Shown one piece after another: positions 25,192 to 62,687 of a stretch of DNA of 64,000 nt (the first letter of the stretch is position 1; the number at the start of each line of letters is the position of its first letter). The position numbers were made by a program, and so were the translations under genes. Location of the stretch: the NCBI GenBank assembly GCA_020438215.1, contig JAGQUX010000002.1:62001-126000 (forward strand), read 5' to 3'. The DNA is from Armatimonadota bacterium (GTDB lineage: Bacteria; Armatimonadota; Fimbriimonadia; Fimbriimonadales; Fimbriimonadaceae). The notes beneath the pieces are model-generated. The model made no database searches, was not told the origin of the DNA, and saw only the letters and a list, made by a program, of their open reading frames with translations.

Positions 25192-25908
25192 ATGCAAGAT
25201 CAGATGAAACACAAGATCATTTGCGCTATTGATACTGGGGATTTAGATGAGGCGACGAGTATCGTTCGCCGGTTGGCTCCGTATGCCGGGGCATTCAAAA
25301 TTGGTCACGGATTGACTCTGCCACACGGCTTGGATGTGATTGATCGCCTGAATGATGCGGGAGCAGAGCGCATCTTTTTGGATATGAAATTCCATGACAT
25401 CCCGAGCAGCGTTGCGATTGGAGTTCGCGAAGCGGCGAAGAAAGGTGTCTGGATGCTAACGCTTCACCTTGCGGGTGGCCCTGCCATGATTACGGCGGCG
25501 GTCGAAGAAGCACAAGAACATGCAATGGTAGTGAGGCCGATGCTTGTTGGTGTGAGTGTGCTGACCAGCATGAATGAAAATGACTTGCGTGACTGGAACG
25601 GCGTCAGTCGCTCGATACCTGAGCAGATGGTGGCACTCAGTGAGCGGGGCGTAAATCTCGGACTGGATGGGGTGGTTTGTAGCGTCCACGAAGCGGCGGC
25701 GATCCGCAAAGTAGTAGGGCATGGTGTGATCGTGACTCCGGGAATTCGCTCGGTAAAAGGTGAATCGCATGACCAAAATCGAATTGGTGATGGCAGAGAT
25801 GCTCTGGATGCAGGCGCGGACTACATGGTCATTGGGCGCGCACTCACGAATGCCGCCGATCCTGAGCAAGCGATACGCGATCTGCGTTTGATGGAACCTG
25901 TTGCCTGA
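25192..25908 (+). CDS. pyrF: Orotidine 5'-phosphate decarboxylase
   Basis: A 238-residue enzyme of the last step of UMP synthesis. The catalytic motif is LDMKFHDIPSSV, with the D-x-K-x2-D arrangement near residue 64. The phosphate-binding end has VTPGIRSV and YMVIGRALTNAADP. The N-terminus IICAIDTGDLDEA holds the first conserved Asp. ATG 25192 is preferred; an alternative ATG three codons later is possible. The promoter is unusually close to the start. Its 3' end overlaps the mutY start by 8 bases; both are on the same strand. Confidence 0.95.
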   Translation: MQDQMKHKIICAIDTGDLDEATSIVRRLAPYAGAFKIGHGLTLPHGLDVIDRLNDAGAERIFLDMKFHDIPSSVAIGVREAAKKGVWMLTLHLAGGPAMITAAVEEAQEHAMVVRPMLVGVSVLTSMNENDLRDWNGVSRSIPEQMVALSERGVNLGLDGVVCSVHEAAAIRKVVGHGVIVTPGIRSVKGESHDQNRIGDGRDALDAGADYMVIGRALTNAADPEQAIRDLRLMEPVA

Positions 25909-26914
25909 TTTTCAGCGCAATTTGCTGACTTGGTACGAAGCTCATCGGCGTGATTTGCCGTGGCGAAGCTCGTCCGATCCTTACTCTGTTTGGGTGAGTG
26001 AGATCATGCTTCAGCAAACGACAGTCGCCGCTGTGATCCCCTTTTTTGAGCGGTGGATGGCGCGTTTCCCGAAGGTTGAGGTGTTGGCGGCTGCGTCGGA
26101 AGACGAGGTTCTCACTTATTGGCAGGGGTTGGGTTATTATTCGCGAGCGCGAAACATTCATCAAGCAGCGGAGATGATTACCGACCACGGTTGGCCTGAC
26201 TCGGTCGAAGGCTTGCGTGCTTTGCCGGGAATCGGAGCCTATACGGCGGGGGCTGTCGGTTCGATTGCTTTTGGTTGGGATGTCCCGCTCGTGGACGGCA
26301 ACGTTGAGCGTGTGTTTGCACGCCTGACTGTTTGCTATGAGTCAGGTTCGAAGCTGAATCGGCTCGCTTGGGATTGGGCACACGGGGTTTTAGCTAAAGG
26401 TCACGCCGGGGATTGGAATCAAGCGTTGATGGAATTAGGGGCGACCGTTTGCCGCCCGGTGAATCCCTCGTGCGTAGATTGTCCTGTTTCTAACTCGTGT
26501 TTTGCTTTTGCTTCGGACTTGGTAAATGAGCTTCCCGTACCTAAGAAGAAGACCGAGTGGGTTGAGCTTCGGCACATCGTGGTTGTTCCGATTTGTGAAG
26601 GGAAGTTTGGGGTGAGGCGAGTTCCTGAGGGGCGGTGGTGGCAAGGGATGTGGGAGTTCCCTCGGGAAGAGGATTCTGTTCCCGGTTTGGATGAGCTGGC
26701 GGGCTTGTTGGGTTCGGGCTGGGAGGAACTAGGGAAGATCAAGCATGTTGTCACTAAGCATAAGATCACGGTGCGGGTTTTTATTGTTCGATTGGAATCG
26801 GAAGTCAGTGGGTTGGAATGGGTGGCTCCAGAGGATTTGGATGGACTGGCGCTCCCCGCTCCGACGGCGAAGATTGCACGGATGCTATACGGCGAATTAG
26901 GTTTGCTTGTTTAG
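25901..26914 (+). CDS. mutY: A/G-specific adenine glycosylase
   Basis: A 337-residue DNA repair glycosylase that removes adenine opposite 8-oxoguanine. The N-terminal catalytic domain carries WVSEIMLQQTTVAAVIPFFERW with the catalytic Glu, the helix-hairpin-helix LPGIGAYTAGAVGSIAFG and the VDGNVERV Asp. Iron-sulfur ligands are CRPVNPSCVDCPVSNSC (C-x6-C-x2-C-x5-C). The C-terminal Nudix-like domain (about 225-330) recognises 8-oxoG. The TTG at 25901 is the only plausible start because the pyrF stop lies just downstream of it. Together with nth at 7.1 kb it provides two iron-sulfur glycosylases in this segment. Confidence 0.94.
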   Translation: MPDFQRNLLTWYEAHRRDLPWRSSSDPYSVWVSEIMLQQTTVAAVIPFFERWMARFPKVEVLAAASEDEVLTYWQGLGYYSRARNIHQAAEMITDHGWPDSVEGLRALPGIGAYTAGAVGSIAFGWDVPLVDGNVERVFARLTVCYESGSKLNRLAWDWAHGVLAKGHAGDWNQALMELGATVCRPVNPSCVDCPVSNSCFAFASDLVNELPVPKKKTEWVELRHIVVVPICEGKFGVRRVPEGRWWQGMWEFPREEDSVPGLDELAGLLGSGWEELGKIKHVVTKHKITVRVFIVRLESEVSGLEWVAPEDLDGLALPAPTAKIARMLYGELGLLV

Positions 26915-27255
26915 CCACTCATAGTTGCTCATTTCCCATGTTTCTGCATCACACTGGTTTCACCAGTGCCACTTAAAAGGTCTCTCCTCCCAAAGATTGG
27001 GAGGAGGTTAGGAGGAGGGTTGAGAGCGAGATAAGGGTGCTTAGCGTGTTCAACTCTCACCTCAATCCTCTCCCGATCTTCGGGAGAGGAGGATTTCATT
27101 GCCTTGTCCAAGTGCCGCGCTCTGGTATGAAAAGACTGGTTTCACCAGTGCCACGCGGTCGAAGGAGGAGGATTTGGAAGCACTGGTTTCACCAGTGCCA
27201 CTCATTGCAGTGCGTGCAATTGAAAATTGTCCAGAGGTAAGGTGAAGTCATTCTT
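26915..27255. repeat. Intergenic region rich in palindromic repeats (BIME-like)
   Basis: No gene is seen here. The region holds three copies of the short palindrome CACTGGTTTCACCAGTG, each followed by CCAC (26952-26968; a copy with GACTGG at 27135-27154; 27181-27201), and between the first two an inverted pair of larger hairpin units. One unit is CTCCTCCCAA-AGA-TTGGGAGGAG at 26984-27006; the other is CCTCTCCCGA-TCT-TCGGGAGAGG at 27067-27089. The same set recurs at 29.5-29.7 kb. Confidence 0.8.
26984..27089. repeat. BIME-like inverted pair, copy A
   Basis: Two inverted hairpin units: CTCCTCCCAA-AGA-TTGGGAGGAG (26984-27006) and CCTCTCCCGA-TCT-TCGGGAGAGG (27067-27089), with loops about 83 bases apart. 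Between them are AGGAGGAGGGTTGAGAG and its inverted counterpart CTCTCACCTCAATCC. The pair at 29565-29671 has the same orientation and an 84-base spacing. Confidence 0.75.
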
Positions 27256-28212
27256 ATGAGATATCGACGGTTAGGAAAGAGTGGAGTCAAAGTCAGTGAG
27301 ATTGCCTTGGGCGGATGGCTGACGCAGGGGCGGACGATCACCGATGACATGACGAACTCGATTGTCCATCGCGCTTTTGATCTCGGAGTGAATTTCTTTG
27401 ATACTGCCGATGTTTACAACATGGGTGAAGCGGAAATTAGCCTCGCCAAGGCGATCAAAGATCTGCGCCGCGATCATTTGTTCCTAGCGACCAAGTGCTA
27501 CTGGCCAATGTCCGATCATGTGAACGACCGGGGCTTGAGCCGCAAGCATATTGTCGAATCCGTGAACCACAGTCTGCGGCGATTACGAACTGATTATGTT
27601 GACCTTTTTCAGTTCCACCGTTTTGATCCCGATGTGCCGATGGAAGAAATGGTGCGGGCGATTGACGACCTGATTCGCCAAGGAAAAGTTTTGTATTGGG
27701 GTGTGAGCTGCTGGTCGGCCGGGCAGATCATGGATGCGTGGCATACAGCGGGCGATTATCTGGCTAGCAAACCGGTGAGCAATCAGCCGCCATACAATAT
27801 GTTCCAGCGCGATATTGAGCGAGATGTGATCTCGACTTGCGATCAACTAGGGATGGGGCAGGTTGTGTTTTCTCCACTGGCGCAGGGTGTTCTGACAGGG
27901 AAATACAAACCGGGCGGCTCAATGCCGGAAGGCTCTCGCGGTGCGGATGAGAAGTCGAATCAGTTCATGCAGAAGGATCTGGAAGAAGCCAAACTCCGCC
28001 AAGTGGAGGAGATGGGCAAAATTGCTGACCGGCTTGGGATATCTATGGCTCAGTTGGCTTTGCGGTGGTGTTTGCGACAAGACAATCTGAGCTCTGTGAT
28101 TGTCGGGGCAACCAAGGTTTCTCAGATTGAGGAAACCGTCAAAGCGGGCGAGATTGATGTGCCTTGCGAAGTCTGGGATGAAATCGAGAAGATTCTGAAT
28201 CCAGAGGCCTAG
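27256..28212 (+). CDS. Aldo/keto reductase, Kv-beta-subunit-like
   Basis: A 318-residue NADPH-dependent oxidoreductase of the AKR superfamily (TIM barrel). The catalytic tetrad is visible as Asp and Tyr in FFDTADVYNMGEAE, Lys in LATKCYW, and His in QFHRFDPD. The later block with SPLAQGVLTGKY and the NADPH-binding GATKVSQIEE complete the pattern, closest to the Kv-beta/YghZ-like branch (R-x-L-G-x-S-G-x-x-V-S at the start). The physiological substrate is unknown. The 3' end shares CTAG with the convergent GT4 gene. The upstream region carries REP-like repeats. Confidence 0.92.
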   Translation: MRYRRLGKSGVKVSEIALGGWLTQGRTITDDMTNSIVHRAFDLGVNFFDTADVYNMGEAEISLAKAIKDLRRDHLFLATKCYWPMSDHVNDRGLSRKHIVESVNHSLRRLRTDYVDLFQFHRFDPDVPMEEMVRAIDDLIRQGKVLYWGVSCWSAGQIMDAWHTAGDYLASKPVSNQPPYNMFQRDIERDVISTCDQLGMGQVVFSPLAQGVLTGKYKPGGSMPEGSRGADEKSNQFMQKDLEEAKLRQVEEMGKIADRLGISMAQLALRWCLRQDNLSSVIVGATKVSQIEETVKAGEIDVPCEVWDEIEKILNPEA

Positions 28213-29417
28213 CCGCCGTGAGCCGCGCGGACTTCGTGGAAGACAGCTTCAAACCGTTTGGTTATGCCATCAATATCAAAGGTGGCTTCCGCGTAGTTCC
28301 GTGCGTTTTTGCCCATTTGTAACGCTCGCTCCGGGTTGCTAGCGATCTGATCGGCACCAGTTACGAAGGCTTCTTTGTCTGTCGGAGGAACGACGATGCC
28401 TGCCTCTTCGCGATCGACAATCTTGGAAGCGAGGTTTTCTGGCGGGACGGCCATTAGGATTGGGCGTGCGGCACAGAGATAGCTGAGCACCTTGCTCGGC
28501 ACACTAAAGACGCCGGCATCGGGCTCTAGGATCGCCATGAGCGCATCGGCAGAGGCGAGAACATCGGGCAAATCCTCGAACGGCTGGAACGGCATCAGCA
28601 GGAGATTGTCAAGCCCAAGCTCTTCCTTCTTTTTCTTGAGATAATCTTGCCCTTGCCCCTGGGAGATGACAATGGTTCTCACCTTTTGGTTGGTTTTGAA
28701 ATGTTCAGCCACTCCCACCAAAAGGTCAGGATTGTGCTTCATGCCGAGAGTGCCGGAGTAAATGAAGTTGGTTGTGTTTTCGAGTTCGTGGCGAACCGCC
28801 CATTTGTTTCCGCGAAGGCGAACCGGCATCTCTTCGAGTGGAGCCCAGTTTTCGATGACATGAACGGGCTTGCTCGTTTTGGGGATGTGGTTCTTGAAAT
28901 CTTCGGCAATAAGCACGATGCCATCGCTGCGGCGGAGCAGTTGGTGCTCCAATGACTTCATGTAGCGACCAGCAGTTCCACCAACCAGCGATCCGAGTTT
29001 TTCGGGGAGGATGCGTGCGGCCGCTTCTCCGAAAAGGTCTTGCACCCAGAAAACGAAGGATGCTCCGGTTGCTTCGGAGTAATTGAGGAGGGCGTTGTTC
29101 ACACGGAGGGGTGTGTTCGCGCTGAGGATGACATCGGGGCGAAACTTCTCGACAACTTCAACAAGCTTAGCGGCATAGGCAGGGTCTTCTTTGAAAAAGA
29201 CTTTCTTGAAATTCGATTTTTCGATGATGTAGCCGAGGTCGACGGGGGTGACATCGAAGCTTGCTGGGTCGCTGGAAGTTTTCTTGAGTGCGCCTTGGGG
29301 AGTGGTGCTGAGGGATGCGCAGAAAGTGTGGAGCACCTCGTGCCCTCGTTTGGCTAGGCTGCGGCTGAGCTGGACTTGGAACGGGTGTCCGGCGTAATCG
29401 TGAACAAGAATCCTCAT
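28209..29417 (-). CDS. GT4-family glycosyltransferase (WcaI-like)
   Basis: A 402-residue GT-B fold glycosyltransferase. The N-terminal Rossmann domain starts MRILVHDYAGHPFQVQLSRSL, with HPFQVQ matching the loop of WcaI/WbuB-like enzymes. The C-terminal domain has FIYSGTLGMKHNPDLL, a nucleotide-sugar binding region, and ILEPDAGVFSVPSKVLSYLCAARP, which is the E-x7-E-like GT4 motif. It likely adds a sugar to an exopolysaccharide or glycolipid. Start: ATG at 29417. It lies next to the GDP-mannose 3,5-epimerase-like gene (same strand, separated by a repeat region), so a GDP-mannose-derived donor is plausible but unproven. Confidence 0.85.
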   Translation of the reverse strand: MRILVHDYAGHPFQVQLSRSLAKRGHEVLHTFCASLSTTPQGALKKTSSDPASFDVTPVDLGYIIEKSNFKKVFFKEDPAYAAKLVEVVEKFRPDVILSANTPLRVNNALLNYSEATGASFVFWVQDLFGEAAARILPEKLGSLVGGTAGRYMKSLEHQLLRRSDGIVLIAEDFKNHIPKTSKPVHVIENWAPLEEMPVRLRGNKWAVRHELENTTNFIYSGTLGMKHNPDLLVGVAEHFKTNQKVRTIVISQGQGQDYLKKKKEELGLDNLLLMPFQPFEDLPDVLASADALMAILEPDAGVFSVPSKVLSYLCAARPILMAVPPENLASKIVDREEAGIVVPPTDKEAFVTGADQIASNPERALQMGKNARNYAEATFDIDGITKRFEAVFHEVRAAHGG

Positions 29418-29564
29418 GGCGCGGGGAAATTATTCCATGAATAGGGTTTTTGATGCTGGGTGAAGGGGGTAACTGTTTGGTGATCATCCCTCACCTCAGT
29501 CCTCTCCCGGTCTTCGGGAAAGGATGAAGTCACTGGCTTTGCCAGTGCCATATGGTTTGCGTTT

Positions 29565-29671
29565 CTCCTCCCAAAGATTGGGAGGAGGTCAGGAGGAGGG
29601 TTGAGAGTGAGATCAATGTGTTTTGGGGTGATCAACCCTCACCTCAATCCTCTCCCGATCTTCGGGAGAGG
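29565..29671. repeat. BIME-like inverted pair, copy B
   Basis: Hairpins CTCCTCCCAA-AGA-TTGGGAGGAG (29565-29587) and CCTCTCCCGA-TCT-TCGGGAGAGG (29649-29671), oriented and spaced as in copy A. The intervening bases differ much more than the stems, as in interspersed REP elements moved by a RAYT-type transposase. No such transposase gene is present in this window. Confidence 0.75.
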
Positions 29672-29747
29672 AGGAAATCGCTGCACCGTCGGTATTGCAC
29701 AGTTAACACCAAGCAACACTGGTTGCACCAGTGCCACACAAAACAAG

Positions 29748-29795: not shown

Positions 29796-30779
29796 TTAGA
29801 CGGTTGCTTTCGCGGTCATCTGATCGTAGATCCAGGCGTAGGTTTTTTCCATACCTTCGCGGAGGGAAATGTTCGGAGCCCAGTCCAGTTCTTTCTTGAT
29901 CAGCGTGTTGTCAGAAGATCGACCGCGGACGCCTTTCGGTGCATCCAGCTTGTAGTGGCGATCAAGTGTGATGCCAGCAATGTCTTCAACAATACTCACC
30001 AATTGGTTGATGGAAACCATTTCGTCGGAACCGAGGTTGATCGGGAAATCGATGTGGGATTCCATGATCTTGTCGATGCCGTTGGTGCAGTCATCAATGT
30101 ACATGAACGATCGAGTTTGTTCGCCGTCGCCCCAAATTTCGATGTTGTGATCGCCGGTCAGCTTTGCATTGATGACCTTGCGGCACATCGCGGCAGGAGC
30201 TTTTTCACGACCACCGTCATATGTTCCGAACGGTCCGTAGACGTTGTGGAACCGAGCCACGCGGCAAGTGATGTTGAAATCTTCTTCGAAGTGGCGGCAC
30301 ATGCGCTCAGAGAAAAGCTTTTCCCAGCCGTAGCCATCTTCAGCAAGAGCAGGATAAGCATCCTCTTCTTTGAGGCCAGGGTTGTTGACGTCTTGTTGCT
30401 TTTCACCGTTGTAAACACAGGCCGAAGATGCATAGAAGAAGCGGCTGACATCAGCATGTCGAGCGGCTTCCAGCATGTGGGTGTTGATGAGAACGGAGAG
30501 CATACAAAGGGCCTTGTTATTTTCGATGAAGCCCATGCCGCCCATATCGGCAGCGAGGTTGTAAACCCAGTCCACGCCTTTGACAGCGTCATTGCAATTT
30601 TCGAGGTATTGCAGGTCGCTGACGCGGTTATCTGCATAGTCGTGAACCTGATACCACTGGTCGTAAGGCTTTTTGTCGATGGCGACAATTTCCTTTGCGC
30701 CTTTGTTCTTCAAATATTCGACCAGGTGTCCACCGATGAATCCCCCGGCACCGGTGACCAAAACTTTTCCATCTGTCAT
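29796..30779 (-). CDS. GDP-mannose 3,5-epimerase-like SDR enzyme
   Basis: A 327-residue short-chain dehydrogenase of the extended SDR class. The NAD motif is VTGAGGFIGGHLVEYL. The stretches NLAADMGGMGFI, SSACVYNGE, RFHNVYGPFGT, GGREKAPAAMCRK, RSFMYIDDC and NLGSDEMVSI closely track plant GDP-mannose 3,5-epimerase, including the catalytic Cys (SSACVY) and Lys (REKAP). The Tyr-x3-Lys pair is YGWEK. The enzyme would convert GDP-D-mannose to GDP-L-galactose and/or GDP-L-gulose. Start: ATG at 30779, because it opens directly on the NAD motif; an alternative start is at 30839. The call rests on motif recall, not on a search. Confidence 0.8.
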   Translation of the reverse strand: MTDGKVLVTGAGGFIGGHLVEYLKNKGAKEIVAIDKKPYDQWYQVHDYADNRVSDLQYLENCNDAVKGVDWVYNLAADMGGMGFIENNKALCMLSVLINTHMLEAARHADVSRFFYASSACVYNGEKQQDVNNPGLKEEDAYPALAEDGYGWEKLFSERMCRHFEEDFNITCRVARFHNVYGPFGTYDGGREKAPAAMCRKVINAKLTGDHNIEIWGDGEQTRSFMYIDDCTNGIDKIMESHIDFPINLGSDEMVSINQLVSIVEDIAGITLDRHYKLDAPKGVRGRSSDNTLIKKELDWAPNISLREGMEKTYAWIYDQMTAKATV

Positions 30780-30993
30780 TTTATTGATGCTACCTTTGAT
30801 AGTTTGTGATTCTTGAGCCTGGATCATCCTGATCGGCAACGCGAAATCACGGCGATGATGACTTCCTAGGCTTCAAGAACCGTGCCAATTGTCTCGTTGG
30901 ACTTGGCACTACTAGGCTCAACGTTTGAGTTAAGCCAGTTGTTCCTATTCGACGTTAATGTTCGGTGAATTGTTGCCTTGAGCTTATGCTTGC

Positions 30994-62546: not shown

Positions 62547-62687
62547 GAGAGCGCCGTCCTGGCGGGAAGGAGAAAATCTTTCTCGCCGGGAACTGCGCGG
62601 CGAGTTCACGGTGAATTCCGCCAGGGCCGGAAGGCAGCAATGGTAAGCCGACGGATTCGGGCGACGCAATCTTCCCGGCGTTCTCGC
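62547..62687 (+). ncRNA. ffs: Signal recognition particle RNA, unusual intermediate size
   Basis: The conserved helix 8 core is visible as CCAGGGCCGGAAGGCAGCAA (62623-62642) followed by TGGTAAG, the Ffh-binding loop region. The predicted ends are GAGAGCGCCG (62547-62556) and CGGCGTTCTC (62676-62685), which pair with one wobble, followed by TTTTT. The length of about 141 bases exceeds the usual 4.5S RNA (about 100-115). The extra sequence includes local hairpins GGCGGGAAGGA/TCTTTCTCGCC and CTCGCC/GGCGAG. The 5' boundary is inferred. It lies directly upstream of dnaX, as in many bacteria. Confidence 0.85.

Follow-up and report, generated by a model that had tools for sequence, protein, structure and literature searches.

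REP-like palindromes with a GTGG guide in an Armatimonadota genome, and the apparent absence of their transposase

Five palindromes in two intergenic gaps

We analysed a 64,000-nucleotide stretch of a contig from an Armatimonadota bacterium of the family Fimbriimonadaceae (GenBank JAGQUX010000002.1, positions 62,001 to 126,000; hereafter the window), in which a short palindrome recurs five times. We argue that these palindromes are probably repetitive extragenic palindromic (REP) elements, the kind of hairpin handled by REP-associated tyrosine transposases (RAYTs). The five copies occupy two intergenic gaps. Three are in the first gap, which has a MutY-like gene with HhH-GPD and NUDIX domains on one side and an aldo/keto reductase gene on the other; the remaining two are in the second, where the flanking genes encode a glycosyltransferase and an epimerase (Table 1).

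An earlier note on this DNA had listed five copies, and a pattern scan of the window located all of them. The palindrome CACTGGYNNNRCCAGTG occurs exactly at 26952, 27181, 29531 and 29717, and the remaining copy, which starts at 27134, has a G for C at its start, a single mismatch that breaks the outermost pair. The details given for the copies were also borne out. The tail CCAC follows four of the five, with CCAT at 29531; the same copy at 29531 is the one that has GGC/GCC in its arms, with loop TTT; and the loops vary as described (TTC, TTT and TGC). When the minus strand is read, the CCAC tail becomes a 5' GTGG at the foot of the hairpin, giving GTGG-CACTGG-Y-NNN-R-CCAGTG, and the GTGG strand of three window copies is predicted to fold into a 7-bp stem with a 3-nt loop. 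At up to three mismatches the window contains 12 sites against 6.5 +/- 2.6 expected, a number reached in 5 of 100 shuffles. These looser sites are near the shuffle level and were therefore treated as noise, so that only copies with zero or one mismatch were counted. At the gathering threshold, Rfam gave no match at the palindromes.

Table 1. REP copies, second-palindrome (P2) copies, composite units and flanking genes in the two gaps (window coordinates)
Feature	Position	Strand	Remark
MutY-like gene	25901-26914
REP copy 1	26952-26972	(-)	GTGG guide + CACTGG-T-GAA-A-CCAGTG
P2	26987-27003	(+)	CTCCCAAAGATTGGGAG form
P2	27070-27086	(-)	CTCCCGAAGATCGGGAG form
REP copy 2	27134-27154	(-)	broken outermost pair
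REP copy 3	27181-27201	(-)	26 nt from copy 2, in tandem with copy 2
Composite REP-P2G-P2A-REP	26952-27154	(-)	gap MutY-like / aldo/keto reductase; alignment to 29531-29737
Aldo/keto reductase gene	27256-28212
Glycosyltransferase gene	28209-29417	(-)
P2	29504-29520	(-)	degenerate, 2 mismatches
REP copy 4	29531-29551	(-)	closing pair C-G, loop AAA, guide ATGG
P2	29568-29584	(+)	A form
P2	29652-29668	(-)	G form
REP copy 5	29717-29737	(-)	loop GCA
Composite REP-P2G-P2A-REP	29531-29737	(-)	gap glycosyltransferase / epimerase; alignment to 26952-27154
Epimerase gene	29796-30839	(-)

Copy number, stem pairing and composite units in the genome

The palindrome is strongly enriched in the genome to which the window belongs (G000; 2.64 Mb in 119 contigs, 99.4% complete), where it has 23 exact sites against a chance expectation of about 0.05 from the window base composition and none for a reversed-pattern control. 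With the CCAC tail included, there are 22 exact sites and 11 with one mismatch. At up to three mismatches with the tail, the counts (67 forward and 66 reverse) show no excess over the control (68 and 79), and such looser matches are therefore no evidence of copies.

Further analysis used 37 copies from 12 sources (the window and L046-L056), taken from loci fetched around the matches. Three singletons with three mismatches (L057, L058 and L059) were left out, L057 being among the 11 one-mismatch sites. One of those 11, C38:3313, differs from the full 21-nt form at three positions and was removed at a later stage. A copy within a called gene that has three mismatches (L051:4267) was kept among the 37 and dropped from the alignment and the orientation count.

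A guide of the form GT[AG]G stands directly at the hairpin foot in 32 of the 37 copies, and the T at its second position is invariant. Mapping relative to genes, which the earlier note had proposed, showed the copies to be clustered and mostly intergenic: by simple greedy calling of open reading frames (ORFs), 30 of the 37 lie between ORFs, and the seven inside them include two window copies, one in a 73-aa frame and one in a frame antisense to an epimerase gene. Adjacent copies no more than 400 bp apart form 22 pairs, among which are seven inverted pairs with GTGG outside and none with GTGG inside, a 7:0 split that has a two-sided probability of 0.016 if both kinds are equally likely. In REP doublets forming hairpins (REPINs), the guides face outside.

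The earlier note had read the doubly changed copy as covariation that points to selection or mobility acting on the hairpin. The loop-closing pair is indeed T-A in 20 of the 37 copies, C-G in 14 and something else in three, and the covariation score of the alignment (36 copies, 25 of them distinct) lies above all 500 shuffles. None of the other six stem pairs shows a compensated change; two vary one-sidedly, and in four, unpaired cells are the only departures. The claim that covariation points to selection on the hairpin is thus weaker than stated. In 57 places, read with mismatches allowed in five genomes from the genus, the fourth stem pair is T-A in 42, G-C in 15 and mismatched in none, and the loop-closing pair is mismatched in one; these places represent a few subfamilies and are not independent events, and the double-foot place in the congener G005 was counted once. 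Compensatory change is therefore genuine and limited to one pair in our genome, the remaining changes being decay. Covariation at a single pair fits mobile copies that were made as hairpins and are now decaying better than it fits selection on every copy.

Part of the REP copies is carried, together with a second palindrome (P2), in larger units of roughly 150-210 nt. The P2 sequence CTCCCRAAGATYGGGAG has 18 exact sites in the genome and none in seven congeners. Seventeen of these sites lie inside fetched REP clusters, and the eighteenth (C64:74920) has only a two-mismatch REP-like site nearby. The usual order is REP, P2G, about 58-71 nt, P2A, REP. With one mismatch in P2 allowed, five units are complete: the window contains two of them, and L048, L049 and L052 contain one apiece. 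The two window units are identical at 158 of 208 aligned columns, compared with 107 of 228 and 104 of 220 in their flanks. The P2 copies of L055 stand in reversed order, and three REP clusters (L047, L050 and L054) have no P2. The REPs that we read in congeners often adjoin other palindromes, of an ATTCC...GGAAT type in G005 and G006 and of a CTCCCC...GGGGAG type in G002. The latter type is also abundant by itself, with 20-51 places in five congeners, three in another and none in G001. Many REP copies in G006 and G005 (L104-L109) are preceded by a repeat of the form TCATTCCGGGCGTGACCCGGAATC, so that REPs seem to sit beside whichever palindrome abounds in a given species.

Transposases in the genus and beyond

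The search for a RAYT gene that the earlier note suggested found none in the window's own genome. There was no match in a profile search with PF01797, none to the RAYT protein of a congener, and none above the NF047646 cutoff (80 bits), for which there were two sub-cutoff matches only. A RAYT flanked by REPs was accordingly not seen in this genome, and the copies look like orphans. REP clusters lie near the contig ends of C33, C43, C74 and C80, so a REP-flanked RAYT could hide in an assembly gap. Two frames were rejected as RAYTs: C30:17515-17670 scores 14.5 bits over a 48-aa frame with a stop and looks like chance, and C22:56974-57315 scores 32 bits against the cutoff of 80 and is a paralogue without the HUH motif.

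This HUH-less RAYT-like protein (L236:3942-4415, equal to G000:C22:56974-57315, and L238-L243) is present in seven of the eight genus genomes, including G001 and G003, two genomes without a match to the REP pattern. PEKTEM or PEATEM replaces its HUH motif, and YDR is mostly kept (FDR in one). A profile comparison with RAYTs gave a probability of 95.9%, and the one member scanned has no Pfam match. The protein is a candidate domesticated RAYT.

We compared the genome with seven congeners (G001-G007), among them Armatimonadetes bacterium Uphvl-Ar1 (G006; Armatimonadota at NCBI) and isolate BC.035 (G005). Three of the seven (G002, G004 and G006) have RAYTs above the NF047646 cutoff; all five congener RAYT proteins tested exceed 80 bits, with HUH and Y..NP motifs in A1. 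In each of the three genomes, one RAYT has a GTGG-CACTGG hairpin within about 100 nt of its open frame. The gene is flanked by such hairpins in G002 and G004, where it lies between inverted copies of GTGG-CACTGGT-ttta-ACCAGTG and GTGG-CACGGGT-ttta-ACCCGTG, and partly so in G006, where it is adjoined by GTGG-CACTGGTC-tgt-GACCAGTG and the relatives CATGGGTC and CATTGGTC. In G002 the homologous stretch of the gene so flanked contains one in-frame stop. The pattern used gave no REP in G001, G003 or G007; in G007, PF01797 gave a partial match at a contig end (59-aa frame, 35 bits), and nothing exceeded the NF047646 cutoff. The exact REP sequence occurs also in G005 and G006, and these two and the window's genome are the three that have the strict GTGG form among 61 genomes (our own and 60 relatives).

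We also looked for an empty site in the congeners. By tblastn, none of the seven aldo/keto reductase orthologues (63-67% identical) has a MutY relative in the 1.5 kb flanking it to the left or right, and therefore no orthologous empty site is readable. In G006 (L291, 195-229), a REP-like stretch with 16 of 17 bases the same is found some 1.3 kb upstream of the orthologue, a position that may be coincidental. Elsewhere in the order, a RAYT-like gene of another family (L280, 1500-2518) has at least seven hairpins of the CACGGGCAAC...GTTGCCCGTG type in or beside it, some with one mismatch, in which GTGC replaces GTGG.

On contigs of named genomes, a slightly looser form of the pattern was found in at least 118 stretches, and it is common in some Planctomycetota metagenome-assembled genomes (MAGs). 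Among the matches listed, 29 of the 118 stretches come from one MAG (DUDC), and singletons mean little since about 30 chance matches are estimated for this pattern in 257 Gb at equal base frequencies. RAYT-like frames occur in four loci among the 118 listed stretches (L145, L183, L214 and L230), and three of these RAYTs have CACTGG hairpins nearby: on both sides of the gene in inverted orientation in L145, on both sides in the same orientation in L230, and as an upstream inverted pair of a variant with a 9-bp stem in L183.

We built a tree of 43 RAYT proteins from the fetched loci, leaving out RAYT-like frames shorter than 140 or longer than 330 aa. The four proteins on the Armatimonadota side that carry the CACKGG label form a clade (100/96), as do the three labelled Planctomycetota proteins (100/99). 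The idea that CACKGG marks a single RAYT clade was rejected: the seven labelled proteins need two changes on the tree and are grouped together in none of 200 bootstrap trees, although the starred branches still permit one origin of the label. We regard it as quite unlikely that one RAYT lineage has kept GTGG-CAC[T/G]GG across Armatimonadota and Planctomycetota, with the enzyme constraining guide and stem over the long term, the active RAYT gone from the window's species, and the HUH-less protein of the genus perhaps binding what remains.

Interpretation, rival explanations and known systems

Our preferred interpretation, to which we assign a probability of roughly 0.86, is that the palindromes are elements of the REP/REPIN class that were spread by a RAYT, have been orphans since the RAYT was lost or went unseen in an assembly gap, and are now decaying, partly within P2 units. 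In one published search, REPs were taken to be stems of 7-20 nt, with loops of 2-5 nt for short hairpins, that have GTAG or GTGG at a distance of 0-2 nt (PMC6006769). In most of the copies described here GTAG or GTGG directly adjoins the hairpin on its 5' side, and stem and loop fall within those ranges, 92% of the cells in the 25 distinct rows being paired; the copies are also mostly intergenic and far more numerous than chance would give. The suggestion in the earlier note that the hairpin is a target of a REP-type enzyme is therefore well supported by the guide, the hairpin, the enrichment, the intergenic clusters with their guide-outside inverted pairs, and the congener RAYTs beside hairpins of the same type; the enzyme itself was not found in the same genome.

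The copies could have arisen as follows. GTGG-bearing single-stranded DNA would fold into the 7-bp hairpin with its 3-nt loop, and a RAYT (TnpA-REP, an HUH enzyme with a single tyrosine) would read guide and hairpin and cut beside the hairpin, thereby spreading copies through intergenic DNA. The RAYT would later have been lost (or lies in an assembly gap), leaving the remaining copies to decay. In the REPtrons that have been tested, the substrate of TnpA-REP is the single strand bearing the guide. A stem mismatch lowers cutting in two perfect-stem systems, those of Stenotrophomonas and Marinomonas, but the enzyme of E. coli requires a bulge (PMC8266576). The analogous substrate here is likely to be the GTGG strand, and a paired stem would be needed when copies are made; if so, pairing would be kept at the variable pair and later changes would go uncompensated.

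Several observations weigh against this interpretation. No RAYT was detected in the genome's own assembly, and G005 likewise carries REPs without a RAYT above the cutoff. With about 35 copies, the family is small for REPs and below the usual high-copy criterion (more than 100 per genome), a number described as usual and not as required (PMC2817692); genomes with REPs and no RAYT are known, and loss of the RAYT is suspected in them (PMC6006769). Tandem neighbours exceed inverted ones (15 versus 7). Within the genome, changes on both sides of the stem occur only at the loop-closing pair, neither the number of doubly changed pairs nor that of pair types exceeds shuffles (447 and 499 of 500 being as high), and an alignment slid by -3 scores 0.131 against 0.145 for the true one. 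The hairpins at the congener RAYT loci differ from ours, with 4-nt loops in G002 and G004 and an 8-bp stem in G006, so that none of these RAYTs can be called an exact cognate; in both G002 and G004 a further RAYT adjoins a different palindrome, of the CCCTACCATT type. Among the Planctomycetota loci, the RAYT-like gene of L214 has a different REP (GTAG-GGTCCGC), and these loci were chosen by the pattern and so show co-occurrence and not its rate.

The copies could instead have spread as passengers of the REP-P2-P2 unit, by recombination or through a transposase that acts on P2, which would be compatible with their being REPs. The confinement of P2 to this genome, its near-exclusive placement in REP clusters, and the five complete units with their similarity in the window favour such a history. 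The order of the unit is nevertheless variable, as in the reversed L055, some REP clusters lack P2, congeners have the same REP without this P2, and RAYT genes adjoin REPs, whereas no search was aimed at a P2-tied transposase. We consider the passenger account possible and rather doubtful. It is unlikely that the palindromes act as RNA, a role that the earlier note had also raised, whether as terminators or as 3'-end stabilisers of flanking transcripts. The copies do lie mostly in gaps, and of the ten clusters flanked on both sides by ORFs of 100 aa or more, four are convergent, six codirectional and none divergent (the second window gap being judged by Pfam-supported genes). Terminator-like scores were also obtained for two REP copies and one P2 of the window, but the seven such sites in 3 kb compare with 3.6 +/- 1.8 by chance. 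RNA structure alone does not explain a conserved GTGG guide outside the stem, both strands are predicted to fold almost equally, and the stem changes are uncompensated except at one pair.

A short palindrome in intergenic gaps would also suit an operator of a DNA-binding regulator. None of the ten clusters lies in a divergent gap, however, and the many tandem copies, the variable loop, the asymmetric guide and the RAYT association in congeners make this very improbable. As for chance palindromes, matches at up to three mismatches are indeed no commoner than in the control, but for exact copies chance is refuted by the genome-wide enrichment, and we give it almost no credence.

Among published systems, the closest likeness is to REPs with a GT[AG]G guide (Quentin 2018, PMC6006769; Nunvar 2010, PMC2817692; Corneloup 2021, PMC8266576), which share the GTGG, the 7-bp stem, the 3-nt loop and the clustering between genes. 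As in published REP/RAYT systems, RAYTs in congeners adjoin hairpins of the same type, but our genome differs in its low copy number and in having no RAYT that we could find. Inverted doublets of REPs are known as REPINs (Bertels and Rainey 2011, PMC3116915); the seven inverted pairs with guides outside resemble them, and the excess of tandem pairs does not. Bacterial interspersed mosaic elements (BIMEs), and the REPs joined to unrelated stem-loops that have been described in Pseudomonas (Di Nocera 2013, PMC3733652), resemble our REPs beside an unrelated second palindrome in recurring units; the sequences are other ones, and P2 is tied to the REP in its own genome. The congener RAYTs beside CACTGG hairpins read WQ and YIHNNP, matching the WQ and YIxNNP of RAYT subclass 2.4 or group 4 (PMC6006769, Table 1), and one G005 copy is a double-foot REP; their HUH motif is EHCH and not NH[IFV]H, the likeness being one of motifs alone.

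The element thus appears to be of a known kind. Its host has been little studied, and the apparent loss of the enzyme there is informative. The word 'armatimonad' is absent from the main text of two of the papers cited (PMC6006769 and PMC3733652), and a narrow literature search, judged by titles and the starts of abstracts, found no relevant report of REPs in Armatimonadota. Our results place a REP family and its RAYTs in this phylum. The genus offers a series of genomes (REP with RAYT, REP without RAYT, and neither) that should be useful for following the fate of REPs after loss of the transposase, and the near-identical stem beside Planctomycetota RAYTs makes the co-evolution of RAYT and hairpin testable over a wide distance.

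Elsewhere in the window, Rfam RF00169 identified a gene for the bacterial small signal recognition particle (SRP) RNA at 62584-62683 (+).

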